In this document: in pieces, positions 28,046-62,094 of the stretch | Layout: each line of letters starts with the position of its first letter | Numbering within the stretch: the first letter of the stretch is position 1 | Origin: Magnetospirillum sp. | GTDB lineage: Bacteria > Pseudomonadota > Alphaproteobacteria > CACIAM-22H2 | DNA length: 64,000 nucleotides | Assembly: GCA_027532905.1 (NCBI GenBank) | Contig: JAPZUA010000001.1 | Coordinates: 211,565 to 275,564 of the forward strand | Direction: 5' to 3' | Translations under genes and position numbers: made by a program | The notes under the pieces: model-generated | Database searches by the model: none | Seen by the model: the letters and a program-made list of their open reading frames with translations, nothing else | Told to the model about the DNA's origin: nothing

Positions 28046-28049
28046 TCGC

Positions 28050-45687: not shown

Positions 45688-46521
45688 TTACGCGATTTGG
45701 GTTCGATACATGGTGCGCTCTTCGCCGGGCGGATAGCCGCCGGCCGCGCGATGCGCGGTGCAGCGATTGTCCCAAACGACGAGATCGCCTTTCGTCCAGC
45801 GATGCCGATAGAGATACGTCTCCGACGTCGCATGCGCGAAAAGCCGCGCGAGCAGCGCTTCGCCGATTTCCGTGTCCGTGTCGACGACGCGCACGGCATT
45901 CGTCTCGTCGATGTAAAGCGCCTTCGCACCGGTCTCGGGATGCTCAAGTACAAGCGGATGCACGACATCGGGCAGCCTTACGCGCTGTTCCGGCGTCAAA
46001 GGGGCGGCATTGCCGGGATTGCGTCCGCCCCACGAGAACATCGCCGCTGCGCGGTCCGCCTGCACCCGAACTTCGGGTGCGAGATCGGCATAGGCGCGGG
46101 CCGTATCGACGAACAGCGTATCGCCGCCCGAAGACGGTAGGACGACCGCATAGAGGGCTGTCGCCTTGCAGGGCGTGCGCGCATAGGACTGATCCGTATG
46201 CCACCCCGTCCCGCGCGCCGCTCCTTTCGGGTCGACGATGCCCGTGCGCGGGTTGCGATTCGAGATGATCGAAACGGCAGGCCATTCGGGATGCCGATAT
46301 TGGTCGAGCGCATGCTCGACCAGACGGCCGAAGATGCCACCCGCTTTCGCGAACCCGGCGACGTCGAGATGTTGGCCACGAAATACCAGGACTTTGTGCG
46401 CGAGGAACGCTTCGGCCACACGCGCGCTTGCCGCCGCATCGATCGGTGTCGCGAGGTCGAGACCGCGTATCGCGGCGGAAAATCCGTCGGAAGCAGGTTC
46501 AATTTCGAACGATGCGATCAT
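45688..46521 (-). CDS. TauD/TfdA-family 2-oxoglutarate dioxygenase
   Basis: A 277-residue alpha-ketoglutarate-dependent oxygenase. It starts MIASFEIEPASDGFSAAIRG. The iron ligands are H108 and D110 (GWHTDQSYARTP), with the distal His in DNRCTAHRAAGGY, and the cosubstrate Arg is in RTMYRTQI. The family cleaves taurine, 2,4-D or N-alkyl groups by hydroxylation. It is the paralogue of 55179-56051. It is encoded between an ATPase and an SBP_5 gene. The upstream frame stays open, so a longer start is possible, but homologues begin here. Confidence 0.88.
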   Translation of the reverse strand: MIASFEIEPASDGFSAAIRGLDLATPIDAAASARVAEAFLAHKVLVFRGQHLDVAGFAKAGGIFGRLVEHALDQYRHPEWPAVSIISNRNPRTGIVDPKGAARGTGWHTDQSYARTPCKATALYAVVLPSSGGDTLFVDTARAYADLAPEVRVQADRAAAMFSWGGRNPGNAAPLTPEQRVRLPDVVHPLVLEHPETGAKALYIDETNAVRVVDTDTEIGEALLARLFAHATSETYLYRHRWTKGDLVVWDNRCTAHRAAGGYPPGEERTMYRTQIA

Positions 46522-46681: not shown

Positions 46682-47788
46682 TCAAACAGTTCGCGGATAG
46701 ACGAGCGTATCCTCGGGCCGCCAAAACACATCGACACGCGTGCCGGCTTGCGGAATCGGGACAGCCCCTTGCGGCGTCTCTAGAAGAAGGCAGGCCGACG
46801 GCGGTGCGCCGAAATGGATCGTGACTTTGGGGCCCAAAAAAATCGTGTCCGACACAACGAGTTCCAGCCGATTGTCGTGCCCCGACTGCGCCGTCAGCGA
46901 CATGCGCTCGGGCCGAATCCCGAGAGTCACGGGTGCACCGACAAGATAGCTACCGGGACAGCGAATGCGGCCCAGCACCGTTTCGACATCCAATATCCCG
47001 TCGGCGTAGGCGCGCACGATTCCGTCAAGGCGCGTCGACAGGCCAACGAAATCGAGCGCAAACGCTGTCGCCGGACGATTATAGAGATCGGCAGGACCGC
47101 CGATTTGCTCGATCGCCCCTTGGTTCATCACGGCGATGCGATCGGACATGATGAGCGCTTCGTCCTGATCGTGCGTGACAAAGACGGCCGTCGTGCCGAT
47201 CTCGCGCAGAAGTCGGCGCAGTTCGATCTGCATCGACTCGCGAAGCTTGCGGTCGAGTGCACTGAACGGTTCGTCGAGCAGCAGCAGTTTGGGCTGCACG
47301 GCCAAGGCGCGCGCCACGGCAACACGCTGCTGCTGGCCGCCTGACAACGCGCGAATGGAGCGGTCGGCCAGCGCCTCGAGATGCACGAGATCAAGATATT
47401 TGGCGACCGTCGCCGCGATCTCGCCGGCCGGGCGGCGCTGGGCGCGGAGCCCGTACGCGACATTGTCGGCCACGCTCAAATGCGGAAACAGCGCGTAGTT
47501 CTGGAAAACGACGCCGACATTGCGCTTATGCGGCGGTTCTGCAGTGATATCGGCGTCGGCAAGGCGCACTGTACCGCGATCCGGCACGACAAGCCCCGCC
47601 ACGATGCGCAGCAGCGTAGTCTTTCCGCACCCCGACGGCCCCAGCAGCGAAACGAACTCGCCGCGCGCAACGCACAGATCCACGCCCGCCAGCACGACCG
47701 CACTGCCGAACGACTTTTCGAGCCCGACAATATCGAGGAATCGCCGATCGTCCTTTAGATTCCCAGCACTCGCGGAAGGATCATTCAT
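46682..47788 (-). CDS. ABC transporter ATP-binding protein, PotA-like
   Basis: A 368-residue ATPase with GPSGCGKTT, VFQNYALFPHL, LSGGQQQRVAVARAL, LLLDEPFSALD and THDQDEAL, and a C-terminal TOBE domain (LDFVGLSTRLDGIV onward). It closely resembles the ATPase at 56048. No permease lies in its own minus-strand operon; the divergent genes at 49936-52610 have no ATPase of their own and may use it. Confidence 0.95.
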   Translation of the reverse strand: MNDPSASAGNLKDDRRFLDIVGLEKSFGSAVVLAGVDLCVARGEFVSLLGPSGCGKTTLLRIVAGLVVPDRGTVRLADADITAEPPHKRNVGVVFQNYALFPHLSVADNVAYGLRAQRRPAGEIAATVAKYLDLVHLEALADRSIRALSGGQQQRVAVARALAVQPKLLLLDEPFSALDRKLRESMQIELRRLLREIGTTAVFVTHDQDEALIMSDRIAVMNQGAIEQIGGPADLYNRPATAFALDFVGLSTRLDGIVRAYADGILDVETVLGRIRCPGSYLVGAPVTLGIRPERMSLTAQSGHDNRLELVVSDTIFLGPKVTIHFGAPPSACLLLETPQGAVPIPQAGTRVDVFWRPEDTLVYPRTV

Positions 47789-47883: not shown

Positions 47884-48630
47884 CTACGCCTTGCGCTTGG
47901 TCGGCTGCGGGCGCGCGTAGGCGCCGAGCCAGACATCGACATTGTTGGCGCGCGCCTGGTCGTCGCCTGAAAAACGCAGCTGCTGCTCGTTGATCTGCAG
48001 GTGGCTCTGCACGAGGGCGATCGCCTTTTTCGCGTCGCCCTTGGCGATCAGCTGGGCGAGTATGCGATGCTCGTCGATCTGCCGCTTGGTGAAAGGCTGC
48101 GGATCGGCCAAAGCGCGAATCAACGCGCAGCGCGGCAGAATCTGGCCAAGCAAATGGCACAGAACGGCGTTGCCGCCGATTTCGGCGATCACAAGATGGA
48201 ACTCCCCGCGCAGCCGCACGAGCTCGCGCCGGTTTTTCGCCGTCGCCGCCGCATCCTGCCGCTCGATATGCGCAAGCATCGTGCGCATGTCGTTGGCCGT
48301 GCAGTAGCGCGCGGCATCGGCAACCGTCTGTGATTCGATCGCGCGCCGTGCCGCGTAGAGATCGGCCGCCATGCGCGCGGTCGGCCGCGCGATCGACGCA
48401 CCGCGGTTCGGCTCGATTTCGACGATTCCGAGAAAGCGCAGATGCTGCAGCGCCTGGCGCACTGTCGTGCGGCTCGTCTCGAACAGACGCGCCAGCAGCT
48501 CTTCGCCGAGCTTGCCGCCGGCCGGCAGATTGCGATCCGACAGCGCGTCGAGCACGGCATCGACGATTCGCAAGGCGGCGGGCGCCAAATGGCTGCGGGC
48601 GCTCTCGGCGGGGAGTGCGGTGTCGAACAC
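47884..48630 (-). CDS. GntR-family transcriptional regulator, FadR/FCD subfamily
   Basis: A 248-residue regulator. The winged HTH spans about residues 20-85 (LPAGGKLGEELLARLFETSRTTVRQALQHLRFLGIV), and the FCD domain follows (RRAIESQTVADAARY, GEFHLVIAEIGGN). It stands between the divergent operons of the third module and is preceded by a palindromic site TTGTATACAA, characteristic of this subfamily. It probably represses both directions until an organic acid or ring compound is bound (inference). Confidence 0.92.
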   Translation of the reverse strand: MFDTALPAESARSHLAPAALRIVDAVLDALSDRNLPAGGKLGEELLARLFETSRTTVRQALQHLRFLGIVEIEPNRGASIARPTARMAADLYAARRAIESQTVADAARYCTANDMRTMLAHIERQDAAATAKNRRELVRLRGEFHLVIAEIGGNAVLCHLLGQILPRCALIRALADPQPFTKRQIDEHRILAQLIAKGDAKKAIALVQSHLQINEQQLRFSGDDQARANNVDVWLGAYARPQPTKRKA

Positions 48631-48868: not shown

Positions 48869-49882
48869 ATGGATCTGCCTTTGATCGACATCTCGGCGTT
48901 TCGCACGCGCGACCAAAGCCGCATGCAGTCGATCGCCCGCGAGGTCGATCGTGCCTGTCGCGATGTCGGCTTTCTCGTCGTCGGCGGCCACGGCATTCCG
49001 CAAGAACTGTTCGACCGATCCTTCGCGCTCACACGTCGATATTTTGCACGTGGGCATGACGAAAAACTGCGCGACTGCTCGTCCTCGCCGGACGTTTTCC
49101 GCGGCTACGAACGCATGGGCACGCGCTATCGCGACGCCGGCCCCGCGGGCAAGAAGGTCGCCGACTACAAAGAAGCCTACATGATCTCGTCGCCCGATTT
49201 CGACGCGGCGGATCGCAACCAACCCGTTCCGCGCGGCTTCGAAGGCATGTATGCGCCGAACATCTGGCCCGACGAGGCGGCGGGCGACATTGCGGGTTTC
49301 CGCACGACCTTCGTTGAATTCTACCGCGCGGTCGACGCACTCGCGCGCACGATGAACGGCGTATTCGCGGCCGCCTTGCAGCTCCCAGAAGATTTCTTCG
49401 TTCCGCATTTTGCGGGCCATGCGAGCACCTGCACCTGGGTCAATTACCCGGCGCAGACCGTGCCGCCCGAACCTGGCCAGATGCGGATACCCGAACATAC
49501 GGATTCGACGTCGCTGACGGTCGTCGTGCAGGACGGCTCCACGCACGGCCTCGAAATCAAGACGCGCGACGGAAAATGGATCCCCGTGCGCAGCCCCGAG
49601 GGGGCCGTGGTCATCAATCTCGGCGACCTCATGGCGCAATGGACGAACGACCGCTGGGTCTCCACGCCGCATCGCGTCGACAATCCGCCGCGCGAGATCG
49701 CGATGGCCAATCCGCGTTATTCGCTGTGCTTCTTCCAGAAGCCGCACGTCGATGCGTCGATCGAATGCCTGCCGACCTGCACCGATGCGGCGAATCCGGC
49801 GCGCCATGCGCCGATCCAAGCCGGCGCCTATATCCGCCAAAAAATGCTGCGCACCCGTCCACAACCGAGTGCCGCCGAGTGA
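48869..49882 (+). CDS. Isopenicillin N synthase-family Fe(II)/2-oxoglutarate dioxygenase
   Basis: A 337-residue oxygenase. DIOX_N is marked by GFLVVGGHGIPQ. Iron ligands are H210 and D212 (PEHTDSTSLTVV) and the distal His in STPHRVDNPP. The cosubstrate clamp is NPRYSLCFF. The ATG at 48869 has GGCAGGGGGG upstream; the frame stays open 60 bp further, but that part has no family similarity. It heads the long plus-strand operon of the third module. Paralogue of 54166. Confidence 0.9.
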   Translation: MDLPLIDISAFRTRDQSRMQSIAREVDRACRDVGFLVVGGHGIPQELFDRSFALTRRYFARGHDEKLRDCSSSPDVFRGYERMGTRYRDAGPAGKKVADYKEAYMISSPDFDAADRNQPVPRGFEGMYAPNIWPDEAAGDIAGFRTTFVEFYRAVDALARTMNGVFAAALQLPEDFFVPHFAGHASTCTWVNYPAQTVPPEPGQMRIPEHTDSTSLTVVVQDGSTHGLEIKTRDGKWIPVRSPEGAVVINLGDLMAQWTNDRWVSTPHRVDNPPREIAMANPRYSLCFFQKPHVDASIECLPTCTDAANPARHAPIQAGAYIRQKMLRTRPQPSAAE

Positions 49883-49935
49883 CCGGGACTGCGGTTCGCG
49901 TCTTCACCTGATTCATCCGAACGGAGCTGAGCGAC

Positions 49936-50985
49936 ATGATCCACACGACATCGAAGACCCGCCGATCCTTCCTCGTCCAAGCCGCAGCCGGCGCAAGTAT
50001 AGCCCTCGCCGCTCCTGCCCTTGCCCAAGTCCGCCGCAAGGAACTGATCATCGGCGGCCCGGCCGGCATGACCGACGTGCTGAAACAGGACGTGTTCCCG
50101 TCCTTCGAAAAGAAATACGGCTGCCGCGTGCTGTTCGACGGTTCGAGCTCGCTCGAGAACCTCAAGAAGATGCAGGCCATCAAAGACCGGCCGCAATTCT
50201 CGGTCGTGCTGATGGACGATCCGGTGATGATCGTCGCGCAAGACGAGAAGCTGATCGAAAAGATCGATCCAAAGAACATTCCCAATATCGGCGCGATCGT
50301 GCCGAACGCGATCGTGCGCGACGGCTGGTGGCTCTCCTACAAATGGCCGCGCGCGTCGATCGCCTACAATTCGAAGGACCTTCCCGGCGGCACGCCGTCC
50401 TGGGCCATGCTCTGGGATCCCAAATACAAGGGCAAGGTCATGATCCCGTCGGTCCGTGCCACGCAGATTCCGTTCATCCTCGCGGCGGCAGCGCATCTCG
50501 AAACCGGAAAGCCGATTGCCGAAGCGCAATACGACATCAACGCCGCCTTCAAGAAACTTGCGACGATCCGCTCCAACCTGCTGCTGATCTACAACGGTTC
50601 GGCACAGGTTGCGAACCTAATCGAAACCGGCGAAGCCACGCTGGGTGCCGGCATGTTCTCGTCCTACACGCTGTGGCGTAAACGCGCGGGCGCACCCGTC
50701 GATCTCGGCTATCCCAAAGAGGGCTCGTTCGCCATGCCGTCCGGCATCGCGAAGGTCGCCAAAGCGCCCGAGCCCGAACTTGCCGATGCATTCATCAGCG
50801 AAACGCTAGGGGCCGAATACCAAAAAGTGTGGGCGGAGAAGCTCTACGACACGCCCACCAACCCCTCGGTTCCGCTGCCGCCGGAAGTCGCCGCCGCATC
50901 GACGCTCACGGTCATCGACTGGGGCTTCGTCGCTCAGAATCGCAACGAATGGATGTCGCGGTTCGACCGCGAGATTGCGATCTGA
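49936..50985 (+). CDS. ABC transporter substrate-binding protein, Tat-type
   Basis: A 349-residue periplasmic protein with a twin-arginine signal (KTRRSFLVQAAAG, cleavage near ALAQ). The body (ELIIGGPAGMTDVLKQDVFP, VLFDGSSSLENLKK, LAAAAHLETGKPIAEAQYDI) strongly resembles the binding protein at 57243, so the two are duplicates. It is followed 2 bp later by a permease. Confidence 0.92.
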   Translation: MIHTTSKTRRSFLVQAAAGASIALAAPALAQVRRKELIIGGPAGMTDVLKQDVFPSFEKKYGCRVLFDGSSSLENLKKMQAIKDRPQFSVVLMDDPVMIVAQDEKLIEKIDPKNIPNIGAIVPNAIVRDGWWLSYKWPRASIAYNSKDLPGGTPSWAMLWDPKYKGKVMIPSVRATQIPFILAAAAHLETGKPIAEAQYDINAAFKKLATIRSNLLLIYNGSAQVANLIETGEATLGAGMFSSYTLWRKRAGAPVDLGYPKEGSFAMPSGIAKVAKAPEPELADAFISETLGAEYQKVWAEKLYDTPTNPSVPLPPEVAAASTLTVIDWGFVAQNRNEWMSRFDREIAI

Positions 50986-50987
50986 CC

Positions 50988-51818
50988 GTGGCATCGCCGC
51001 GCATGGCCGCAGCCGGGTGGCTTGCCCTGCCCGCTGCGGCCTGGGCGACGATCTGCTTTCTGCTGCCGCTCGCCATTCTGTTTGCGACGAGCTTCCAGAG
51101 CGGCGACGGCGCGCCGTTCGGCGTGTTCGCGCGGATCTTCGGCGATTCCTACTATCGCGACGTCATCGCGAACACGGTCGTCTATGCCTCGGTCGTCACC
51201 TTCGCGTGCCTTGTGATCGGCTATCCATTTGCGCTGGCGCTCGTGCGCCTGCCGGGCTGGCTCCAGGCCATCGGCATGATCGCGATCCTGCTGCCATTGA
51301 CCGCGAGCGCCATCGTCAAGACCTTCGGCTGGACAATCCTGCTGCGCACGACCGGCCTCGTGAACAATCTGCTGATGGCCATCGGCGCCATTGAAGCGCC
51401 GATCCGCATCCTGTTCACGCTGCCTGGCCTCTATCTCGGCACGATCAACATGCTGTTGCCATTCATGATCCTGCCAATCTTCGCCGTGATGCGCCGCATC
51501 GATCCAACGCTGCTCGATGCGGCCGCCACGCTGCGCTCCGGCCCCGTCGACCGGTTTCTGCGCGTGACCTTGCCGCTGAGCCTGCCGGGCGCTTTTGCCG
51601 GGTTTTCGATCGTCTTTTCGCTGGCCTCGTCCGCCTACGTGATCCCCACCCTGCTCATCGGCGAGCGCCACAAGGTGCTGTCGAAAGTCATCGCCCATAA
51701 CTTCCTCGTCGCAAACGACCCGGCACTCGGTGCCGGCCTTGCCGTCGTGCTGCTCGTCTTCTGCACCAGCATGATCGCCCTAGCCGCCCGCTTCGGGCGC
51801 GCGCGCACGGAGAGCTAG
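50988..51818 (+). CDS. ABC transporter permease, PotB-like
   Basis: A 276-residue permease with about six helices. The EAA loop is LDAAATLRSGPVDRFLRVTLP, with R in place of the usual G in the LGAS motif. The GTG at 50988 is 2 bp after the binding-protein stop; an ATG at 51003 is an alternative. It pairs with the following gene. Paralogue of 58265. Confidence 0.9.
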   Translation: MASPRMAAAGWLALPAAAWATICFLLPLAILFATSFQSGDGAPFGVFARIFGDSYYRDVIANTVVYASVVTFACLVIGYPFALALVRLPGWLQAIGMIAILLPLTASAIVKTFGWTILLRTTGLVNNLLMAIGAIEAPIRILFTLPGLYLGTINMLLPFMILPIFAVMRRIDPTLLDAAATLRSGPVDRFLRVTLPLSLPGAFAGFSIVFSLASSAYVIPTLLIGERHKVLSKVIAHNFLVANDPALGAGLAVVLLVFCTSMIALAARFGRARTES

Positions 51819-52610
51819 ATGGCGCGCTTCTTCCTCGTGCTTGGACGGTTCTGGGCGTTGCTCGTGATCGTGTTTTTGCTCGCCCCGATCTTCGTGACAG
51901 TCGCGGTATCGTTCTCGCCGTCGGCCGTGTTCGATTTTCCGGTCGATCGCCTGTCGACGCGCTGGTACGAGCGGCTGTCGCGCCAGTCGAGTTTCTGGGA
52001 GGCGTTGGGCACGTCCGCCTGGATCGCGTCGGTCTCAACTCTGCTTGCGGTCGCTTTGGCAACCCCGGCCGCGATCGCGATCGCAACGCGCGCGATCCCG
52101 GGAGCCCGCACGCTTGCCGGGCTCCTCACCTCGCCTTTGATGATGCCGGGGCTCGTCGTCGGGATCGCGTTTTTGCAGGCGTTCCGCGCGGTGGGCCTCC
52201 GCGATGCACAGACGTGCCTCGTGATCGCGCACGTGATCATCACGCTGCCCTATATCGTGCGCACGCTTCTGGCCTCTCTGCATCTGTTCGATTTCTCGCT
52301 GATCGACGCCGCCCGCACGCTCGGCTCCACGTGGCCCGGGGCCGTGGCCAAGGTTCTGCTGCCGGCCCTGTTTCCCGCCGTCGTCACAGGAAGTGCGTTC
52401 GCCTTTCTCGCCTCGTTCGACAACTACTCAATCTCGCTGTTTCTCGTGGATGTCACGGCGCGCACCTTGCCGATCCAGGTTTTGAACTATCTCGAAACGG
52501 GCGCTGACCCGACGATCGCCGCCATCTCGACGATCCTTCTTTGCTTCACCGTGCTCGCACTGCTGCTCGCCGACCGCATCGTCGGCGTGCGGCGGTTGGA
52601 TCTCGGCTGA
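51819..52610 (+). CDS. ABC transporter permease, PotC-like
   Basis: A 263-residue permease. It begins directly after the TAG of the first permease. Features are VAVSFSPSAVFDFPVDRLSTRWYE and the EAA loop IDAARTLGSTWPGAVAKVLLP. It is paralogous to the permease at 59128. Its TGA overlaps the ATG of the amidohydrolase (TGATG). Confidence 0.92.
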   Translation: MARFFLVLGRFWALLVIVFLLAPIFVTVAVSFSPSAVFDFPVDRLSTRWYERLSRQSSFWEALGTSAWIASVSTLLAVALATPAAIAIATRAIPGARTLAGLLTSPLMMPGLVVGIAFLQAFRAVGLRDAQTCLVIAHVIITLPYIVRTLLASLHLFDFSLIDAARTLGSTWPGAVAKVLLPALFPAVVTGSAFAFLASFDNYSISLFLVDVTARTLPIQVLNYLETGADPTIAAISTILLCFTVLALLLADRIVGVRRLDLG

Positions 52611-54154
52611 TGCCGGACGTAAACGCACCGATGCGCCTTTCGCCCGATGCGGTGTTGCTGCCGGGGCAAGCCCACGCCGCGACCGGCCTCGATGTCGTCG
52701 TCCGCGCCGGACGCATCGAGGCCATCCTGCCGCGCGGGCAAGGCGATGTGCCAAGCGTGGCCCTGCCGGGCCAGCTTCTGATGCCGGGTGCGGTCAATGC
52801 GCACCAGCATGGGCGCGGTGTGACGAACCTGCAGTACGGCTTTCGCGACGAACGGCTCGAGACGTCGCTGCATGCGCGCATGGGCCACGGAAAGCTCGAT
52901 CCCTATTGGGCGACGATGCTTGCGGCAAGGCGCATGATCGCAAGCGGCATCACGGGCTGCGTGCAAGGCAATGTCCCTTACGGAACCGGCGATTTCGTCG
53001 GCGAGACCGCGAAGATTTTGTCCGCCTACGCGGACTCGGGCTTACGAGCCCTCGTCTGCCTCGGCGCACTCGACCGCGCGCATATCGTCTACCCGCATCT
53101 CGACGAAGCGGCGTTTCTCGCAAGCCTGCCGGCCGACCTTGCGGCGGCAATGCAAGCACGCCGCAAGCCCCCTTACGCGCCCGATGCTGCGGCGACGATT
53201 GCAGCAATGTCGGCGCTGCTTGGCGATTGGGGCAACCATCCGCGTCTTTCGCTGGGCTACGGCCCGGCGGGCCCGCAATGGCTCTCCGACGAAGCTTTTG
53301 CCGCCCTTGCGTCCGACGCTCGCAAGCGCGGCTTGATGTTGCACTACCACTGCCTCGAATCCTGGACACAGCGCGCGGCCTGCGACCGGCTCTATCCCGA
53401 AGGCTGCCTGGAACGCATGCACCGCCTCGGCGCCCTGCACGACCGCGTCTCGATCGCGCACGGCGTGTGGCTCGACGACCACGACATTGATGTCGCCGCG
53501 CAAGCGGATGCCGCACTCGTGCGCTGCGCAGGCTCTAATCTCAATCTCGCCGTCGGCATCGCGCCGACGACACGCTATGCGGCGGCAGGCTTGCGCGTCG
53601 CGATCGGCACCGACGGCCGCACGATCGACGATTCGGAAGACATATGGCGCGAAGCGCGCCTTGTCGCGGCCCTCGCCAACGGCGATTCATGGTCCGATCC
53701 CGAACCGATCGATGCGGCCGCCCTTTTGAAGATGCTGACCGTGAACGGTGCGCGTGCGGCCGGCTTTGCCGACGTTGGCGAGATTCGCGCGGGCTGGCAT
53801 GCCGACATGATCGCGGTCGATCTTCCCCTTCTGTCCGGCACCTATGTCGATTCCGATCTTCCAATCCTCGATCTGCTCGCGAAACGCATGACCGCCGAAT
53901 GCGTGCGTATGACCATGGTGGGTGGGCGTATCCTCTATCGAGACGGAATTTTTGCCGACCCCAAACTCGCGCGCGCCGACAGCGAAGCCGCTGTGCAGGC
54001 GCGGCGTGCGAAAGCGACGACCGATCCGGCGGGACGCAGCCTTTCGGCGCGCCTGCGCCCGCATCTCGAATCCCACTACCGAAGCTGGGTCCCAACTTCG
54101 CCGACGCGCCACGCCGCCGATGCACGAGCGCACGTGCCAGTCAGCGGGCTTTAG
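52610..54154 (+). CDS. Amidohydrolase, TRZ/ATZ-like subgroup
   Basis: A 514-residue metal-dependent hydrolase. Ligands are visible as VNAHQHGRG, LHYHCLESW, IAHGVWLDD and AIGTDGRTIDDSED. It sits between two importer/oxygenase sets and starts inside the stop of a permease, so translation is coupled. Deamination or hydrolysis of a ring amine is the likely chemistry; substrate unknown. It is the last of five amidohydrolases of this superfamily in the window, counting the partial one at the left edge. Confidence 0.85.
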   Translation: MPDVNAPMRLSPDAVLLPGQAHAATGLDVVVRAGRIEAILPRGQGDVPSVALPGQLLMPGAVNAHQHGRGVTNLQYGFRDERLETSLHARMGHGKLDPYWATMLAARRMIASGITGCVQGNVPYGTGDFVGETAKILSAYADSGLRALVCLGALDRAHIVYPHLDEAAFLASLPADLAAAMQARRKPPYAPDAAATIAAMSALLGDWGNHPRLSLGYGPAGPQWLSDEAFAALASDARKRGLMLHYHCLESWTQRAACDRLYPEGCLERMHRLGALHDRVSIAHGVWLDDHDIDVAAQADAALVRCAGSNLNLAVGIAPTTRYAAAGLRVAIGTDGRTIDDSEDIWREARLVAALANGDSWSDPEPIDAAALLKMLTVNGARAAGFADVGEIRAGWHADMIAVDLPLLSGTYVDSDLPILDLLAKRMTAECVRMTMVGGRILYRDGIFADPKLARADSEAAVQARRAKATTDPAGRSLSARLRPHLESHYRSWVPTSPTRHAADARAHVPVSGL

Positions 54155-54165
54155 GGGGCAACCGA

Positions 54166-55182
54166 ATGCAGATTCCGAAAATCGACATTTCCGCGTTCGT
54201 TGCGAACGACAAAGCAGCCAAACCGCAAATCGCCCAAGCGGTGGCCGCCGCCTGCCGCACAAACGGCTTTTTCCTGATCGAAAAACACGGTCTGCCGGCC
54301 GATCTTCTGCCGACGGCCTTCGCGACGGCGCGCGCATTTTTCGAGCTTCCCGTCGAAGAGAAAGCGAAATGCGCGCCGCCGTCGCGCGAAGTGTTCCGCG
54401 GCTATTTCGGCCGCGAGATGCGCCGCACGGCGGCCTATCGCGAGAAGGTTGAACATGGCGATCTCAAGGAAGAGTTCCTTGTGGGCACGCCAACACCGCG
54501 CCCGCCCGTTCGCCTGCGCATGCCCTGGCCCGAAGAAGACCCCGAAACCATCGACTGGATCGAGGCCGACAATATCTGGCCCGCCGAACCGGCTGCATTC
54601 CGGCCCGTGTTCGAGCGCTTCTACGCCGAGATGGACAAGCTCGCTGCCATCATCTGCCGCATCTTCGCGATGTCGCTGGGGCTGCCCGAGACGTACTTCG
54701 ACGACAAAACGGACCGGCACGGTGCGACGGCGAATTGGGGCTACTACCCGCCGCAGGAAACGTCGCCGAAACCGGGCCAGATCCGCCAAGGTGCGCACAC
54801 GGATATCGGCGGCTTCACGATCCTTGCCGCCGACCGCGCGCCGGGCGGCTTGCAGGTCCAGGATCCGGACGGCGGCTGGCACGACGTGCTGATCCCCGAC
54901 GGCGCACTTGCCATCAATCTCGGCGACCTGCTTGAACGATGGACCAACCGCCGCTGGAAAGCCACGATGCATCGCGTCGTCAATCCGCCCGAAGCGCTTC
55001 GAAACACGGCGCGACAATCGATGGGCTTTTTCTTCAAGCCCAACGCGGATGCCGCGATCGCGTGCCTTCCGACATGCCGCGACGCGGCAACACCGGCCGA
55101 ATTCCCCGAAATTCTGGCAGGCGAACACATGCTCTACCGCATGCTCGCCTCGCGCCGAAACATGAGGAAGGCAACCGCATGA
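54166..55182 (+). CDS. Isopenicillin N synthase-family Fe(II)/2-oxoglutarate dioxygenase
   Basis: A 338-residue oxygenase. DIOX_N is marked by NGFFLIEKHGLPA. Iron ligands are H211 and D213 (GAHTDIGGFTIL) and the distal His in TMHRVVNPP. The clamp is TARQSMGFF. The site TTAGGGGG precedes the ATG. It overlaps the TauD-type gene by 4 bp, so two different oxygenases are made from one coupled unit. Confidence 0.9.
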   Translation: MQIPKIDISAFVANDKAAKPQIAQAVAAACRTNGFFLIEKHGLPADLLPTAFATARAFFELPVEEKAKCAPPSREVFRGYFGREMRRTAAYREKVEHGDLKEEFLVGTPTPRPPVRLRMPWPEEDPETIDWIEADNIWPAEPAAFRPVFERFYAEMDKLAAIICRIFAMSLGLPETYFDDKTDRHGATANWGYYPPQETSPKPGQIRQGAHTDIGGFTILAADRAPGGLQVQDPDGGWHDVLIPDGALAINLGDLLERWTNRRWKATMHRVVNPPEALRNTARQSMGFFFKPNADAAIACLPTCRDAATPAEFPEILAGEHMLYRMLASRRNMRKATA

Positions 55183-56051
55183 CACACGCACAAACCCTCG
55201 CGAAAACCACAGCCGACGCTGGGGCCGGCCTTCGCGTCGAAACGGTCGTCGACGGGTTCGTTGCACGCATCCGCGGCATCGACATCACGGCGATGGATGA
55301 CACGATTTTCGCCGCGATCTACCGGAAGTTCCTCGACACACCGGTGCTGGTGTTTCCCGACCAGCCGAAGGATGCAGCGGCGTTTTTCGCGTTCACGAAT
55401 CGCTTCGGCCAAGTGGTCGAGCATGTACTAAACCAGTTCCACCATCCGAGCGTTTGGGGCGTGTCCTTCATCACCAATGTGCGCCCCGACGGCGCACCCG
55501 ATCCCGTCGGCTACAAACGATCGCGCGAATGGCATACCGACCGCAGCTACGACACGAGCCCCGGCAAGACGACGGCGCTGCTGGCGCTTGAAATGCCGGA
55601 GATCGGCGGCAAGACCGATTTTGCGGACATGTATGCTGCCTATGCGGCCCTGCCCGACGATCTGCGCGTCGCACTCGCCGGCAAGGTCGGCATCTTCCGC
55701 TGGAGCGGGCGCAAGGCCGAGGGCTCGGTCAATCTCACGCCGGACCAATCGGCACGGCTCGTCGATGCGACGCATCCGATCCTGCAACTGCATCCCGAAA
55801 GTGGCCGCCCGACGGTCTATGTTGATCCCGGCAATCTGATCGGCATCGTCGGCATGACGCAGGCCGAGAGCGAGCCGATCCTGCAGCGTCTGTTCGCGCA
55901 TTGTCTGCAGCCCGCTTTCCACTATGCCCACAAATGGACAGTGGGCGAACTCGTGATCTGGGACAATCGCTGCTCGATGCATCGTGCCGCCGGCGGCTAC
56001 GCGCCGACCGAACGGCGCGTTCTCATTCGAACCCAGACCCAGAGCCGGTGA
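55179..56051 (+). CDS. TauD/TfdA-family 2-oxoglutarate dioxygenase
   Basis: A 290-residue oxygenase. The HxD pair is H119 and D121 (EWHTDRSYDTSPGKTT), with the distal His in NRCSMHRAAGGY and the Arg in VLIRTQT. It is paralogous to 45688-46521. The ATG overlaps the preceding dioxygenase and its stop overlaps the GTG of the ATPase gene. Confidence 0.9.
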   Translation: MTHAQTLAKTTADAGAGLRVETVVDGFVARIRGIDITAMDDTIFAAIYRKFLDTPVLVFPDQPKDAAAFFAFTNRFGQVVEHVLNQFHHPSVWGVSFITNVRPDGAPDPVGYKRSREWHTDRSYDTSPGKTTALLALEMPEIGGKTDFADMYAAYAALPDDLRVALAGKVGIFRWSGRKAEGSVNLTPDQSARLVDATHPILQLHPESGRPTVYVDPGNLIGIVGMTQAESEPILQRLFAHCLQPAFHYAHKWTVGELVIWDNRCSMHRAAGGYAPTERRVLIRTQTQSR

Positions 56052-57202
56052 ACGGCAGTTCGAAACCGCACCTGCACCTGGCGGCCGTGGGCCAGCGCAA
56101 GCCTGCGGACGCGCCGGAGCCGCTTGCCTATCTCGAGATCGGCGGCGTCGCCAAAAGCTTTCGCAACGTGAAGGTCCTCGACGATCTCGACATCTCGATC
56201 CGCCGCGGCGAGATCGTTTCGCTACTAGGGCCTTCGGGGTGTGGCAAGACGACGCTGCTGCGCGCGATCGCCGGGCTAATCGACATCGACAAAGGCCGCA
56301 TCCGCGTCGGCGGCGTCGACATTACGGACCTTCCCACGCATCGGCGCGAAGTCGGCGTTGTGTTCCAGAACTATGCGCTGTTCCCGCATCTCGATGTACG
56401 CGGAAACATCGGCGTCGGCCTGCGCGCCAAGGGCCTCGGAAAGGCTGCGATCGCGGCGCGCGTCGAGGAGATGCTGAAGCTCACGCGGCTCGAAGCCTTG
56501 GCGAACCGATCGGTCGGCGCATTGTCGGGCGGGCAGCAGCAGCGCGTGGCCGTCGCGCGCGCCCTTGCCGTCTCGCCGCGACTTCTGCTGCTCGACGAGC
56601 CCTTCAGTGCTCTCGACCGCAAGCTGCGCGAAACCATGCAAGTGGAGCTGCGCGGGCTGCTTTCGACACACGGCATCACCGCGATTTTCGTCACGCACGA
56701 CCAAGAAGAAGCCATGGTCGTCTCCGACCGCATCGCCGTCATGCGCGAGGGGCGCATTGAGCAGTTCGCAGACGTCGCCTCCCTCTACAACGCGCCTGCA
56801 ACACGCTTCGTTTACGAATTTGTGGGTCTATCGACGGTCATTGCCGGAACGGTGCGCACGCAGATCGACGGGATCTGCGACGTGCACACACGCCTCGGTC
56901 CGATCCGCGTGCCTGGCAGCTTCATGCGCGGCGCTTCAGTCGTCGTTTGCCTGCGGCCCGAAGCGATTTCGCTGCGCCAATCCACAATGCACGGCGCGCC
57001 GATAAAGATCAGCTGCCCGGTCCGCCATGTGTCGTTTTTTGGCTCGCGCGGTCTCGTCTATGGCGACGTGCCGGAGCCGGAGCGTTTCGTCGTCGAACTT
57101 GACGCGCAGGATCTTGCGGCCATCCGACCCGGCGAAAGCGTCGATTTTTTCTGCGACCCGTCCGCCGCCCGCCTCTTTCCAGCCGAAACGGCGTCCGTTT
57201 GA
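56048..57202 (+). CDS. ABC transporter ATP-binding protein, PotA-like
   Basis: A 384-residue ATPase with GPSGCGKTT, VFQNYALFPHL, LSGGQQQRVAVARAL, LLLDEPFSALD and THDQEEAM, followed by a TOBE domain. The N-terminal 25 residues before the first strand are an unusual extension (NGSSKPHLHLAAVGQRK); an alternative later start cannot be excluded. It probably serves the permeases at 58265-59925. The GTG overlaps the TauD stop. Confidence 0.94.
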   Translation: MNGSSKPHLHLAAVGQRKPADAPEPLAYLEIGGVAKSFRNVKVLDDLDISIRRGEIVSLLGPSGCGKTTLLRAIAGLIDIDKGRIRVGGVDITDLPTHRREVGVVFQNYALFPHLDVRGNIGVGLRAKGLGKAAIAARVEEMLKLTRLEALANRSVGALSGGQQQRVAVARALAVSPRLLLLDEPFSALDRKLRETMQVELRGLLSTHGITAIFVTHDQEEAMVVSDRIAVMREGRIEQFADVASLYNAPATRFVYEFVGLSTVIAGTVRTQIDGICDVHTRLGPIRVPGSFMRGASVVVCLRPEAISLRQSTMHGAPIKISCPVRHVSFFGSRGLVYGDVPEPERFVVELDAQDLAAIRPGESVDFFCDPSAARLFPAETASV

Positions 57203-57242
57203 GCGCTGTTCCTTTCCCTTTGCGACCGAAAAGGAGTTCACC

Positions 57243-58268
57243 ATGAAACGTCGTCGATTTCTCGGCACCGGTATTGCCGGCGGCCTGCTGCTCTCGGCCC
57301 CGACATTGGTGCGCGCGCAGACCCGCCAGATCCTGATCGCAGGGCCGTCCGCGCAAGCGAAAATGTTCGAGACCGACGTTCAGCCCATCGTCGAAAAGCG
57401 CGTGGGCGTGAAGATCGTTTTCGACGGCTCGATCTCGGTCAAACACCTCCAGGTGCTCGAGGCTGAACGCAGTGCGCCGACCTATTCGCTCGCCTGGATG
57501 CCTGACACGGACATGATCACCGCCGTCGAGAAGAACCTTCTCGAACCGCTCGATACGGCGAAGATCCCGAACCTTTCGAAGCTGCTGCCCGGCGCCTTCG
57601 ATCCGCGCAATCCCTGGGTCCAGATGAAAGTCGCGCGCTTCTCGGTCGGCATCAACACCGATCGCGTCAAGCCCACACTCGCCGCTTGGGCCGATCTCTG
57701 GGGCCCGTTCTACAAGAACAAAGTTTTGGTCCCCGCCTTCCAATTGACGCAAGGGCCGATGATGCTGGCGATGGCGGCCCACCTCGAAACCGGGAAGCCT
57801 TTGGCGCAAGCGCAGTACGACGTCGATGCCGGATACAAGCGACTGCGCACGCTCAAACCCTCGATCTTAAACGTCTTCTCTGCGTCGCCCCAGGCGATCA
57901 CGCTACTCGAACAGGGCGAAGCCTATGCGGTGGTCGGTCTCTTCTCGTCGGTCCTCTATCCCCGGATGCGTGCAGGCGTGCCGATCGACCTGCCGATGCC
58001 GCGCGAGGGTGCATTCGGCAGCCCAAACTGCCTTGCGCGGATCGCCAAAGGCCCCAACGCCGAGCTTGCAAATGCCGTCATCGACGCGATGCTCGATGTC
58101 GACGTTCAGAAGATCATGATGGAGCGCACGTTCGACTCGCCTGTACGCGCCGAAGCGGGTCTCGTTCCCGGCGTGATCGGTTCGGACAAGCTCTTCGCGC
58201 TCGACGCTGCCTTCTGGGGCAAAGAGCGCGCGAAGATAGCCCCCGGCTACGCGGCGGCACTCGCTTGA
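57243..58268 (+). CDS. ABC transporter substrate-binding protein, Tat-type
   Basis: A 341-residue periplasmic protein with a twin-arginine signal (MKRRRFLGTGIAGG, cleavage at VRAQ). The body (QILIAGPSAQAKMFETDVQP, KIVFDGSISVKHL, MAAHLETGKPLAQAQYD) is a paralogue of 49936. AAGGAG precedes the ATG. Its stop overlaps the TTG of the first permease. Confidence 0.92.
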   Translation: MKRRRFLGTGIAGGLLLSAPTLVRAQTRQILIAGPSAQAKMFETDVQPIVEKRVGVKIVFDGSISVKHLQVLEAERSAPTYSLAWMPDTDMITAVEKNLLEPLDTAKIPNLSKLLPGAFDPRNPWVQMKVARFSVGINTDRVKPTLAAWADLWGPFYKNKVLVPAFQLTQGPMMLAMAAHLETGKPLAQAQYDVDAGYKRLRTLKPSILNVFSASPQAITLLEQGEAYAVVGLFSSVLYPRMRAGVPIDLPMPREGAFGSPNCLARIAKGPNAELANAVIDAMLDVDVQKIMMERTFDSPVRAEAGLVPGVIGSDKLFALDAAFWGKERAKIAPGYAAALA

Positions 58269-59131
58269 GCACGAGCATCGCTGCACCAAGCGCCGACCGG
58301 ATGCGCGCCAGCACGACGCTCGCCGCGTCGCTGCTGGCGGTACCGCCGGTCGCATTTCTTGTTGCGGCTTTCGCAGTACCGATGGCGATCGTCTTTCTGC
58401 TCGCAGTGCGCGGGCCGGAAGGCTTCACGCTGCAGCATCTCGTCGCGTTCTTCGCGACACCCGCCGGGCGCACGATGGCCGCAAACACGGTCGCCTATGG
58501 GATCGGTACGGGCATCATCTGCTGCATACTGGGCTTTCCGCTCGGCTATGTGATTTCACGCGCCGGCCCACGCGGCCAAGTCGTTCTGATCGTGCTGACG
58601 TTTCTTCCGCTCTGCACGAGCGTGATCATCAAGGGCTTTGCGATCACGCTGCTTCTGAAGTCGAACGGCATCGTCAATTCAACTCTGATGGCACTCGGCA
58701 TCGTCGATGCGCCTGTCCGGCTCATTTTCACCGAGGTCGCCCTTTTTGTGGGCTCGGTTAACGTGTTTCTCCCCTTCGCGGTCCTTCCGGTCTACGCCGT
58801 CCTCGCCGAACGCGGTCGCGATCTTGAGGATGCGGCCGCCACGCTCGGATGCAGCCCAGCCTTCGCGCTGTTCCGGATCGTGCTGCCGCTCGCACGCCCG
58901 GGCTTGCTGGCGGCGTTTTCGATCGTCGCGGCACAGGCAATGTCGGCCTACGTGGTCCCCACCTTGCTGATCGGCGACCGCTTCCGCGTTCTCTCGCGCG
59001 GTGCCTACGACGCCTACATCCTGCACGATCCAGTTGGCGCCTCGGTCGCGGCCCTTGTGCTGCTGCTCACGGCACTCGGGATCGTTGCACTTGCCAACCG
59101 GATCGGCGGCACGAAGCGAGCCGTCCCATGA
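58265..59131 (+). CDS. ABC transporter permease, PotB-like
   Basis: A 288-residue permease with about six helices. The EAA loop is LEDAAATLGCSPAFALFRIVLP. I call the TTG at 58265, which overlaps the binding-protein stop (TTGA); an ATG at 58301 would remove 12 residues ahead of the first helix and is also possible. It overlaps the second permease by 4 bp. Confidence 0.88.
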   Translation: MSTSIAAPSADRMRASTTLAASLLAVPPVAFLVAAFAVPMAIVFLLAVRGPEGFTLQHLVAFFATPAGRTMAANTVAYGIGTGIICCILGFPLGYVISRAGPRGQVVLIVLTFLPLCTSVIIKGFAITLLLKSNGIVNSTLMALGIVDAPVRLIFTEVALFVGSVNVFLPFAVLPVYAVLAERGRDLEDAAATLGCSPAFALFRIVLPLARPGLLAAFSIVAAQAMSAYVVPTLLIGDRFRVLSRGAYDAYILHDPVGASVAALVLLLTALGIVALANRIGGTKRAVP

Positions 59132-59925
59132 AGCACTTCAATCCCGTAAAAGCGATGCTCGGTTTGGCGGCGGCACTGGCACTCGCCTTTCTGCTGGTAC
59201 CGCTGCTGCTCGTCGTGGCCGTGTCGTTCTCGCCAAGCGTGATCTTCGATCTGCCGTCGCGCGGACTGTCGCTGCGCTGGTACGAGGCGGTCGGCTCGCT
59301 CACGTCGTTCTGGCGCGCGCTTCGCGTGTCGATCGAGATCGCCGCCGTCGCGACAGCAGCCGCCGTTATCCTCGGAACCATGGCCGCCTTTGCCATACAT
59401 TTCGGGCGCTTTCGCGGGGCGGCAGCAATCCAGGCCTTCGTCATGTCGCCGCTGATGCTGCCCGGCATCGTCAAGGGCATCGCGTTGCTGCAGGCGTCGC
59501 GCATGTTCGGGCTCTCGGACGCGTTTTTATTGCTCGCGATCGGCCATACCGTCTTGGCGATCCCGCTTGTGGCGCGCACATTGCTCGCAAGCCTTGCGAG
59601 CTTCGACCCGTCGATCATCGACGCGGCCCGCACGCTTGGCTATTCCTACTCATCGGCGCTTGCGCGGATCGTCGTGCCGAACTTGCTGCCCGGAATCTTC
59701 ACGGGCGGCGTCTTTGCGTTTCTTGCATCGTTCGACAATTACTCGGTTTCCCTATTTGTTGCCAGCGTGCGTGCAAGACCGCTGCCGATCCAGATGATCC
59801 AGTATCTCGAAGAAGGTGCCGACCCGACCGTCGCTGCCATCTGCACGATCCTGATCGTTGTCACGGCGATCTTGCTGCTGCTGGCCGACCGCGCCGTCGG
59901 GCTGCGGCGCATCGCAGCGGGCTGA
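59128..59925 (+). CDS. ABC transporter permease, PotC-like
   Basis: A 265-residue permease with VAVSFSPSVIFDLPSRGLSLRWYE after helix 1 and the EAA loop IDAARTLGYSYSSALARIVVP. It is the duplicate of 51819-52610. The deaminase gene follows 28 bp later. Confidence 0.92.
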   Translation: MKHFNPVKAMLGLAAALALAFLLVPLLLVVAVSFSPSVIFDLPSRGLSLRWYEAVGSLTSFWRALRVSIEIAAVATAAAVILGTMAAFAIHFGRFRGAAAIQAFVMSPLMLPGIVKGIALLQASRMFGLSDAFLLLAIGHTVLAIPLVARTLLASLASFDPSIIDAARTLGYSYSSALARIVVPNLLPGIFTGGVFAFLASFDNYSVSLFVASVRARPLPIQMIQYLEEGADPTVAAICTILIVVTAILLLLADRAVGLRRIAAG

Positions 59926-59953
59926 ATGTTCTTCCAGCGAAAGGCAGAGTCCC

Positions 59954-60448
59954 ATGTACGACGAAAAATTCATGCGCCGCGCCATCGAAATCTCGAGAAC
60001 GGCGATCGATATCCCGGGTGCGGAACCGTTCGGCGCCGTCGTGGTGCGCGACGGCATCGTCATCGGCGAAGGCCTCAATCGCGCGGCCGCTTTGATGGAT
60101 CCCACCTCGCATGGCGAGGTCGAAGCGATCCGCGATGCGTGCCGGAAGCTCGGCACGCGCGATCTCTCCGCGTGCGAGCTTTACACCTCGTGCGAGCCCT
60201 GCACGCTTTGCGTGGCGACGATGCATATCGTCGGCATCTCGGCCCTCTACTACGCGGTTTCGCTGTCGCAGTCTTGGAACGCGCTCAAGCATCTGGGCCA
60301 GCATGTCCGGCGCTACACGATCAGTGCCGTCGATCTGCGCACGCAATGCGGATTGCCGGTCCATGAGCGCAAGATGCCGGCAAGCACGCATCTTGCAGAG
60401 GTAGCGATCCCTGCAATCGATGCTTGGGCCACGAGCCGTTCTGGCTGA
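59954..60448 (+). CDS. CMP/dCMP-type zinc deaminase (guanine/cytosine deaminase-like)
   Basis: A 164-residue deaminase. The zinc site is HGE at H53-E55 (variant of HAE) with E55 as proton shuttle, and PCxxC at C83 and C86 (SCEPCTLC). The fold and size resemble guanine deaminase and TadA-like nucleobase deaminases. It would convert an exocyclic amine on a ring to a carbonyl. It precedes allA-like and ring-opening genes by 37 bp, so deamination then ring opening is a natural order. Confidence 0.87.
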   Translation: MYDEKFMRRAIEISRTAIDIPGAEPFGAVVVRDGIVIGEGLNRAAALMDPTSHGEVEAIRDACRKLGTRDLSACELYTSCEPCTLCVATMHIVGISALYYAVSLSQSWNALKHLGQHVRRYTISAVDLRTQCGLPVHERKMPASTHLAEVAIPAIDAWATSRSG

Positions 60449-60485
60449 CAGCCCGACGCAATAGATTTCAGACCGGAGTTTACAG

Positions 60486-61064
60486 ATGAGTCAAACGACC
60501 CGCACAATTCAAATCGCCGTCGAGCCTTTTACCGCCGAGGCTTTCGCCCCTTTCGGCGTCGTGCTCGGCGAACCGCCGCGTACGGCCGAGTTCGGCGGAC
60601 CCGCGAGTGCGAGCTGGCTCATGCCGTTCGAAGCCGACAGCGGCGTGCAGTTCATGTATTCGCGTTTCAAGTACCAGCCAATGCGTTTCTCAGTCCTCGA
60701 ACGCCACTTCAACGTCACGCAAGGGTTTACACCGCTGAACGGTAGCCCGCTCATTATGGTCGTCGCCCCGCCGACCGACCGCAGCGGCGCTACCGCTGCA
60801 CCCGCACTGGAGAGCGTGCGCGCCTTCTATCTCGACGGTTCGACCGGCCTGCTCATGCACAAGGGCACATGGCATGCCCTCGACCGATTCCCGGTGTCGC
60901 CGCCGCATATCGACTGTGTTTTCATCACCGATCGCGCAACCCACCAGGAATTGATGCAAGAGAAAGCCGACGGCACCAAGCCGCAACTGACCGAGCTATA
61001 TGACTTCGAAGCCGAGCGTGGCGTGAAGTTCGAGATCGTCGGTGCCGATGCCGCGATCGTCTGA
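60486..61064 (+). CDS. allA: Ureidoglycolate lyase (AllA)-like protein
   Basis: A 192-residue cupin-fold protein of the AllA family. It has EPFTAEAFAPFGVVL at the N-terminus, FNVTQGFTPLNGSPLIMVVAP, and GLLMHKGTWHALDRFP with the conserved metal/substrate histidines. The classic reaction is cleavage of ureidoglycolate to glyoxylate and urea. CGGAG lies 7-8 nt before the ATG. Its end overlaps the next gene, the ring-opening amidohydrolase, so it may act on a ureido-acid made by that enzyme instead of ureidoglycolate (inference). Confidence 0.85.
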   Translation: MSQTTRTIQIAVEPFTAEAFAPFGVVLGEPPRTAEFGGPASASWLMPFEADSGVQFMYSRFKYQPMRFSVLERHFNVTQGFTPLNGSPLIMVVAPPTDRSGATAAPALESVRAFYLDGSTGLLMHKGTWHALDRFPVSPPHIDCVFITDRATHQELMQEKADGTKPQLTELYDFEAERGVKFEIVGADAAIV

Positions 61065-62094
61065 ACTTTTCCGCTGCGCCGCGCGCAGTGCGGACGATCT
61101 TTCCGGCCTCGTCGCGTTGTGCCGCGGCGGCTTGGCGCTGGAGTCCGTGCGAGCCATCTGGTGCAAGACCGACGGCACGGGTCTCAGCAACGACTATTCG
61201 CGCGCATGTGCGGATGCGGCTTTACGCAGCTTTTTAGCCGAAGCCCTTGGGTGCTCGCCGACGGAAGCAGCCAAGCGCGTTCAGATCGTTGTGTCCGGGG
61301 GGTCGGAGGGGATCGTGTCGCCGCATCTTCTCGTACTTGCAGAAACCGAAAGCAGCGCTCCGGCGACGGAGGTCGGGCTCGTGAGCGGAAGCGACCGCCA
61401 GCCTTTTCCCAGAGAGGATGCAGGCACACAAGCCCACGCCGATTTTACCGCCGACATGGTGCGGCGGGCCGCATCCCAAGCTGGGCTCGATCGCGCGTCA
61501 TCCGCTGCCTTCGTGATGGTGAAATCGCCGGCCCAACCTGGATCGAGTTTGGCGGCCATAAAGGCCCGCGCTGCTGTCGCTGCCGGTGTGGGGCTCGCGA
61601 CCGGTCGACTTGCGGCACTCCCAGCCGCGTTCGATGCGCCGTTCGATGGGCCCGACAATGTCTTTGCCGTCGCCCGAAGCGACGAGACCGACCAGCATGT
61701 CGTTGTGCTCGGAAACGCCCCAGGTTCGCGCTCCCGCCAAAGTATCGCAAGCGGTTCACTCGTGGATCCGCTCGACGCGAGCGGCGTCGCGGACGTTGCC
61801 GCAGCGCTTGGCTTTGCCGCCGCACCGCAGCTAGGTGCGTCGGAGGCCGAGCGCGTCATTGGCGTGTTCGTCAAAGGCGATCCACCGGCCGGATATATCC
61901 GCGGCTTCGCGCACGCGATGGAAACGGACCCGACCTTGCCGTCGCACCGGCAGGGCAGAGCCGCCTATGCGGCAATGGTCGCCGCAATCGTCGGTATTCC
62001 CGCTATTTTTGTTTCAGGCGGCGCCGATGGCCACGGTCCGGCACAGGGCGGGCTTGTGGCCATTGTCGCCGACAAGCAGGATCGGCGCGTTTAA
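61048..62094 (+). CDS. Ring-opening amidohydrolase, cyanuric acid amidohydrolase/barbiturase family
   Basis: A 348-residue member of the AtzD/TrzD/barbiturase family, which opens a cyclic imide ring with three Ser-Lys pairs in three pseudo-symmetric domains. Lysines are visible at K40 (WCKTDGTG), K159 (VMVKSPAQP) and in VFVKGDPP. Serine motifs are S83 (VSGGSEG), ARSDETDQH and VSGGADGHGP, the last with the GG loop AQGGLVAIV. Cyanuric acid and barbiturate are the two known substrates; I cannot separate them here. The ATG at 61048 (or GTG at 61042) lies within allA, so the genes are coupled. Confidence 0.9.
   Translation: MPRSSELFRCAARSADDLSGLVALCRGGLALESVRAIWCKTDGTGLSNDYSRACADAALRSFLAEALGCSPTEAAKRVQIVVSGGSEGIVSPHLLVLAETESSAPATEVGLVSGSDRQPFPREDAGTQAHADFTADMVRRAASQAGLDRASSAAFVMVKSPAQPGSSLAAIKARAAVAAGVGLATGRLAALPAAFDAPFDGPDNVFAVARSDETDQHVVVLGNAPGSRSRQSIASGSLVDPLDASGVADVAAALGFAAAPQLGASEAERVIGVFVKGDPPAGYIRGFAHAMETDPTLPSHRQGRAAYAAMVAAIVGIPAIFVSGGADGHGPAQGGLVAIVADKQDRRV

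Follow-up and report, generated by a model that had tools for sequence, protein, structure and literature searches.

An operon of Magnetospirillum sp. ending in AllA-like and AtzD-like genes, with a putative role in N-heterocycle breakdown and an AtzD-like product lacking one Ser-Lys dyad

Organization of the operon and its last three genes

The window analysed here is a stretch of 64,000 nucleotides from Magnetospirillum sp. (contig JAPZUA010000001.1, positions 211,565 to 275,564). At 59954-62094 it carries genes for a zinc deaminase, a protein resembling the ureidoglycolate lyase AllA and a ring-opening enzyme of the AtzD/barbiturase family. The three genes were found to be the last of 14 collinear plus-strand genes (48869-62094), none of which is separated from the next by more than 53 nt. 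The original prediction, which was made from the three genes and read them as a coupled unit, had overlooked this surrounding operon starting at 48869. The operon also includes two ATP-binding cassette (ABC) importer sets, three 2-oxoglutarate oxygenases and one Amidohydro_1 protein, and would represent an island for the import and breakdown of N-heterocycles. Its genes and the divergent genes beside it were as follows.

48869-49882, plus strand: DIOX_N/2OG-FeII oxygenase, at the head of the operon (a longer frame would begin at 48809; PF14226, PF03171)
49936-50985, 51003-51818 and 51819-52610, plus strand: binding protein and two permeases of ABC importer set 1 (assigned by BLAST cluster membership with set 2, with no single Pfam scan)
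52610-54154, plus strand: Amidohydro_1 protein of the deaminase/chlorohydrolase type, 514 aa (PF01979, 129.3 bits; nearest solved chains 4dyk and 4gbd)
54166-55182, plus strand: thymine-dioxygenase-like 2-oxoglutarate oxygenase (PF14226, PF03171)
55179-56051, plus strand: TauD-type oxygenase (PF02668, 183.7 bits)
56048-57202 and 57243-58268, plus strand: ATPase and binding protein of ABC importer set 2 (PF00005, PF13343)
58301-59131 and 59128-59925, plus strand: permeases of set 2 (PF00528; the second by cluster membership)
59954-60448, plus strand: zinc deaminase of the nucleobase/nucleoside type (PF00383)
60486-61064, plus strand: AllA-like protein (PF04115)
61048-62094, plus strand: AtzD/barbiturase-family ring-opening enzyme, subfamily A, 348 aa (PF09663)
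47884-48630, minus strand: GntR-family regulator, divergent from the operon (NCBIfam phnR_burk, 71.5 bits, under its cut-off)
46682-47788, minus strand: divergent ABC ATPase (cluster membership)
45688-46521, minus strand: divergent TauD-type oxygenase (PF02668)
44098-45672, minus strand: divergent SBP_bac_5 protein (PF00496)

In the Pfam scan, the deaminase (164 aa) matched PF00383 with 74.9 bits (cut-off 25) and showed the motifs H-G-E and C-E-P-C-x-x-C, while the AllA-like protein (192 aa) matched PF04115 with 67.8 bits (cut-off 23). The AtzD-like protein (348-350 aa) matched PF09663 with 208 bits (cut-off 25) over model positions 2-358 of 358, and hhalign gave a probability of 100 for the same family. 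Its gene starts at GTG 61042 or ATG 61048 and ends at 62094; with the ATG start, it overlaps the AllA-like gene by 17 nt. The coordinates, overlap and family assignments given originally were thus correct. The same overlap was observed in L032 (9442-10020 and 10004-11050), the single relative found by a pattern scan of genome contigs. L032 belongs to G002, a metagenome-assembled genome labelled Telmatospirillum sp. (Rhodospirillaceae) and, like the window's own genome (G000), one of the 11 genus genomes examined. The ratios of nonsynonymous to synonymous substitution (dN/dS) between the window and L032 were 0.058, 0.057 and 0.126 for the deaminase, AllA-like and AtzD-like genes, respectively. 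Thus, all three genes appear to be maintained by purifying selection. Gene content and order, overlap, active-site changes, clade, distribution and selection were all determined by computation.

Among the oxygenases, the one at 54166-55182 had thymine dioxygenase (thymine 7-hydroxylase) 5c3p as its nearest solved chain (E 1.4e-37), but the relationship is distant at 133 bits. This oxygenase had 10 matches in G000, two of them being pieces of one frame; accordingly, specificities must vary among them. The Amidohydro_1 protein reached the cut-off of none of the NCBIfam models listed. A promoter scan was close to chance (1 versus 1.9 expected), as was a terminator scan (17 versus 13.9 expected, standard deviation 4.1).

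Active site of the AtzD-like enzyme

To place the active-site residues, 64 PF09663 rows were aligned with MAFFT, using AtzD of Pseudomonas sp. ADP (L096) as a ruler. As the numbering of the ruler record runs up to 2 residues behind that of PMC3758960, positions were anchored by motif. The alignment left out L014, L015, L016, L053, L054, L061, L069, L072, L073, L075 and L076 as repeats or partial sequences, and L082 as a repeat of D_G002. The 64 rows do not equal 64 different genes, since repeats were kept (X_G075 with O_L018, CAH_G005 with O_L010, and the close copies O_L011 and O_L012), and the row of the barbiturase 5hwe is partial.

In PMC3758960, K42, K162, K296, R54, R325, G86, A234, S85, S233 and S344 are called conserved throughout the family. 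The window enzyme kept nine of these ten positions, the exception being S233, which was replaced by Val (residue 208). It retained the K42-S85 and K296-S344 pairs together with K162, R54, R195 and R325. Valine occupied the S233 column in all eight rows of subfamilies A, B and E, where A comprises the window and G002, and B and E comprise one row each from G001, G005 and G009. Across the 64 rows, this column held Ser in 53 and Phe in three (two proteins). In subfamilies B and E, K162 was also replaced by Arg, and in E alone R54 was replaced by Lys. The distant PF09663 proteins L017/L072 (G126) and L018/L037/L073 (G075) had Phe in the second-dyad Ser column; the G075 gene adjoins ornithine cyclodeaminase-like and TRAP transporter genes.

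The loss of the second-dyad Ser did not depend on the aligner. Profile-profile alignment (hhalign) placed Val208 opposite this Ser, in agreement with MAFFT, and a HMMER pairwise alignment with the Moorella enzyme opened a 4-residue gap over it, so that no Ser was aligned there by any of the three programs. Ser211 lies three residues past Val208, at a place taken by Asp in subfamily B and His in subfamily E. The Ser of the second dyad is described as conserved and essential in PMC3758960, where the AtzD variant S233A was soluble and inactive. Two structural papers conflict on the nucleophilic dyad: Ser85 is favoured for AtzD (PMC3758960), and the second-domain Ser231-Lys161 for the Moorella enzyme (PMC6557486). 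A clade that has dispensed with the second-domain Ser is therefore a natural experiment on this question.

The substrates named for the family in these papers are cyanuric acid and barbiturate. At specificity positions 195, 321, 325, 345 and 346, the window enzyme has R, H, R, G and G. This agrees with the cyanuric acid hydrolase signature (groups I-III: R195, T321, R325, G345, G346) at four of five positions, T321 being replaced by His, and with the barbiturase signature (group VI: N195, H321, K325, V345, S/A346) at one of five. It does not fit group V, a group without known substrate in PMC3758960, in which position 195 is absent and 321 is G, R or W. The closest solved chains of the AtzD-like protein were cyanuric acid hydrolases (132 bits), followed by barbiturase (106.9 bits). 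By its specificity positions the active site is nearer to the cyanurate type, and the lost dyad is the distinguishing trait of its clade. In comparison with AtzD/TrzD of the Toblerone fold, the window enzyme shares the family, three Arg, two of three Ser-Lys dyads and the four specificity positions, but it differs in Val for Ser233, His for T321, about 17 missing residues of the second domain, and a setting in an importer/oxygenase operon rather than beside atzG/atzE. With barbiturase (5hwe) it shares the family and His321, but it differs at the other four specificity positions (R, R, G, G versus N, K, V, S/A) and in lacking the second-dyad Ser.

The enzyme could be one that hydrolyses cyanuric acid or barbiturate despite the missing dyad, with the AllA-like protein acting on its product, for example as a ureidomalonase. 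Membership of PF09663, the closest solved chains and the match of R195, R325, G345 and G346 to groups I-III speak for this explanation. However, Ser233, whose change to Ala inactivates AtzD (PMC3758960), is Val here, the barbiturase signature hardly fits, and the NCBIfam cyanuric acid hydrolase model NF052395 gave 203.2 bits, under its cut-off of 360. Moreover, a canonical cyanuric acid hydrolase with the full signature is encoded elsewhere in the genome (C4:232213-233280, 487.5 bits), which disfavours cyanurate as a substrate of the AtzD-like enzyme, and the scanned genes of the operon included none annotated as atzE or of the biuret type. We consider this explanation unlikely. Of the original proposal that ring opening acts on cyanuric acid or barbiturate, the PF09663 assignment and the cyanurate-type positions stood, but the poor barbiturase fit, the loss of Ser233 and the separate canonical hydrolase told against the substrates. 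A triazine pathway was set aside because the canonical hydrolase is encoded elsewhere in the genome.

Clade, distribution and settings of the subfamilies

A phylogeny of the ring-opening enzyme, suggested as a check of the original prediction, joined subfamilies A, B and E in a single clade with support of 100/100. This was observed both in a 60-row tree (the 64 rows minus O_L006, O_L007, O_L009 and O_L012) and in a 42-row tree, from which 22 rows had been removed (all of C and D, X_G075, O_L017, O_L018, O_L074, O_L090, and nine repeats or near-copies). Group V (Frankia, 5hy0) was not among the tree rows. Both runs warned of long branches, and the position of the clade within the family is therefore unsure.

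It was also considered whether the subfamily might be a non-catalytic binding or scaffold protein. The loss of one dyad across the whole clade and the long branches would fit such a role, as would the identity of 86% between the window and G002 for the AtzD-like protein, which lies below the 91-95% of the five operon neighbours compared. However, two Ser-Lys dyads are complete in the window enzyme, which also retains three Arg, and its dN/dS is 0.126; a scaffold role thus appears improbable.

A profile built from seven A/B/E rows gave eight matches of 554-591 bits, the next match being at 248.5 bits. The matches were in five of the 11 genus genomes (G000, G001, G002, G005 and G009), and none was found in 12 other genomes of the order. 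The information in this result lies in the lack of further matches, since seven of the eight are rows from which the profile was built. In 385 genomes sampled from the class, scores above 254 bits occurred only in G000 and G002, and in 398 genomes sampled from the phylum, scores above 257 bits occurred only in G000; the two draws are overlapping samples. So far, the A/B/E group is limited to the genus. A plasmid tblastn search with the AtzD-like protein returned 127 records, none of which spanned 80% of the query, and the annotated genes among the 30 of these records listed were cyanuric acid amidohydrolases or ring-opening amidohydrolases. Among the listed records were PF09663-type genes carried on plasmids of Citrobacter, Leclercia, Serratia, Aeromonas and rhizobia. 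In the open-licence literature searched, the papers listed included none that pairs homologues of AtzD and AllA.

The settings of the three subfamilies were compared. At the B locus L034 (mirrored in L033), a divergent GntR gene is followed by AtzD-B, Amidohydro_1, PF01522, binding protein, ATPase and two permease genes. At the E loci L047 and L048, AtzD-E overlaps a thymine-dioxygenase-like gene, and a divergent GntR gene, Amidohydro_1, ABC genes and an Asp/Glu/hydantoin racemase gene were also found; the third E locus, L046, is a short contig. All three subfamilies thus share GntR, Amidohydro_1 and ABC neighbours, and A and E share a thymine-dioxygenase-like one as well. The recurrence of these neighbours across subfamilies is the basis for proposing an N-heterocycle as substrate, and the operon context suggests a few candidate substrates for the AtzD family.

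The genus also has PF09663 subfamilies C and D (L038-L045; in the window's own genome at G000:C1:812850-813851), which were joined with 100/99 in the 60-row tree. They have Ser at 233 and Leu or Phe at 321, and mostly adjoin a gene for an NMT1/THI5-like binding protein (Pfam run on L038 only).

AllA-like protein, deaminase and the purine route

The original prediction placed the AllA homologue outside the purine route. The window protein shares PF04115 and the E-R-H and G-x-W-H motifs with ureidoglycolate lyase AllA, the E. coli form of which is described in PMC3793230 as releasing urea in a nickel-dependent manner. It differs in lying outside a purine cluster, in scoring at best 59 bits against the NCBIfam AllA models (cut-offs 160-315), far below them, and in a C-terminal extension. 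In the alignment, this extension was absent from the purine-cluster rows and the G029 row and was partly present in G012 and G016. In G002, a window-type gene occurs in addition to a PF04115 gene of 116.7 bits in a urate oxidase stretch (L148), where urease alpha, UreF, a UreG-type protein and an M20 peptidase were among the families scanned. In G000, the AllA-like gene is the sole strong PF04115 match (65.4 bits genome-wide; the other match reached 35.2 bits), and the like-ordered urate oxidase/urease stretch (L157/L158, C1:8000-40000) has 72 bp where G002 has its PF04115 gene. Thus, the presence of both genes in G002 supports a PF04115 gene outside the purine cluster, and the AllA-like protein may act outside the purine route or, as the only strong match in G000, have an ordinary purine-route role.

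In the latter case, it would be the strain's usual ureidoglycolate lyase, merely riding in the operon and unconnected to the AtzD-like enzyme. The lone strong match, the urate oxidase/5-hydroxyisourate hydrolase/urease cluster with only 72 bp at the relevant place, and stand-alone relatives in four congeners (G001, G005, G009 and G010) favour this explanation. G002 nevertheless has both genes and preserves the 17-nt overlap between the AllA-like and AtzD-like genes, and the score lies far under the AllA equivalog cut-off of 230. We regard it as rather unlikely. A search for allantoicase (PF03561) gave no match anywhere, controls included, and is therefore uninformative.

The best solved match of the deaminase was guanine deaminase 1tiy, covering residues 3-103 of 164 only; the match to guanosine deaminase 7dbf also ended at residue 103. 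The zinc-binding core (residues 1-103) is shared with these enzymes, but the last 60 residues of the window deaminase were unaligned in the structure search. In Variovorax and Agrobacterium, genes for relatives with 49-51% identity lie next to GntR, flavin reductase and Pot-type ABC genes; of 195 matching records, three were viewed, the last of which has a peptide-type ABC set.

The deaminase's nearness to guanine deaminases and the AllA-like neighbour also bear on whether the AtzD-like enzyme substitutes for 5-hydroxyisourate hydrolase in urate breakdown, opening the six-membered ring. The bond type is alike, but the genome encodes a PF00576 gene of its own (116.7 bits, C1:23577-23915). Such a substitution is highly improbable and was set aside because of this gene.

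Presence of the three genes in congeners

The three genes had been read as one coupled unit, a claim weakened by a collinear operon in G005. This stretch (L161) has 16 genes with 59-83% identity to window genes and ends with deaminase, TauD and SBP_bac_5 genes, and it carries neither an AllA-like nor an AtzD-like gene. The deaminase therefore does not need the pair, and the three genes are not an obligate unit. Because this congener has the core of the operon but neither of the two, the AllA-like and AtzD-like genes are best seen as a pair added to it. The G005 deaminase has 76% identity to the L052 paralogue and 67% to that of the window, so that its strict orthology is unsure.

The AllA-like gene and AtzD-A occur together in two of the 11 genus genomes, G000 and G002. 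In G001, G005 and G009, AtzD-B and AtzD-E lie elsewhere, and each genome has a stand-alone AllA-like relative (59% identity), which could possibly act in trans with AtzD-B and AtzD-E. G010 has an AllA-like relative (64%) without A, B or E.

Proposed pathway

From these gene neighbourhoods, our tentative reading is that the operon imports an N-heterocycle and breaks it down through oxidation, deamination, two-dyad ring opening and urea release; we put it just short of an even chance. We infer the substrate class, the order of reactions and the release of urea as follows. The ABC importers would bring in an N-heterocycle of the pyrimidine, hydantoin or purine type, and the 2-oxoglutarate oxygenases would hydroxylate the imported ring. 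Exocyclic amino groups would then be stripped by the Amidohydro_1 protein and the zinc deaminase. The AtzD-like two-dyad enzyme would open the ring, and the AllA-like protein would split off urea, or a fragment resembling it, from the ureido acid so formed. Since one of three Ser-Lys dyads is lost, the ring opened probably has two carbonyls, not three. On this reading, ring opening and urea release would be additions to an operon for the import, oxidation and deamination of nucleobase-like compounds. The pathway first proposed, from deamination to a cyclic ureide through ring opening to AllA-like cleavage, is among the possible readings, although both its substrate and its coupled unit have lost support.

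Several points weigh against our reading. The specificity positions and the closest solved chains are of the cyanurate type, and a structure prediction of the AtzD-like protein (window and L032) was discarded at a mean pLDDT (predicted local distance difference test) of 38.1. Besides the pair-free operon of G005, the link of the AllA-like protein to ring opening may be loose, given the stand-alone genes in four congeners, and one of the two deaminases may suffice for another use altogether.

If the AllA-like protein follows AllA chemistry, the opened product must be hydroxylated at the carbon that carries the ureido nitrogen. Such a hydroxyl could come from a 2-oxoglutarate hydroxylase, and the opening of 5-hydroxyhydantoin would give ureidoglycolate. 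On this chemical reasoning of our own, a more specific route on a two-carbonyl ring of the hydantoin or dihydropyrimidine type was considered, which we hold to be quite unlikely. The thymine-dioxygenase-like enzyme would hydroxylate the ring carbon adjoining a ring nitrogen, the AtzD-like enzyme would yield an alpha-hydroxy ureido acid, and the AllA-like lyase would then expel urea. Candidate ring openings are 5-hydroxyhydantoin to ureidoglycolate and 6-hydroxydihydrouracil to 3-hydroxy-3-ureidopropionate. If true, this would be a new cyclic-ureide pathway, with the AtzD fold used on a ring without three carbonyls.

Other heterocycle-type operons

A second heterocycle-type operon of the same style lies in the window at 22705-32068. 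BLAST clustering with Pfam-scanned relatives assigned to it an Amidohydro_1 protein, an ABC importer, a thymine-dioxygenase-like oxygenase, an amidase, PF01522 and an Asp/Glu racemase. In G002 (L052), G003 (L166) and G010 (L165), this operon has a deaminase gene between the amidase and PF01522 genes, which is absent from the window at 30451-30510.

A relative of the window Amidohydro_1 protein with 48.5% identity was found in a heterocycle-type operon of Bosea (L128, plasmid pNBC550; 3 of 464 records viewed). Its neighbours encode an AtzE-family amidohydrolase, an LLM oxidoreductase, a flavin reductase, creatininase-family, arginase-family and polysaccharide-deacetylase proteins, and an ABC importer.

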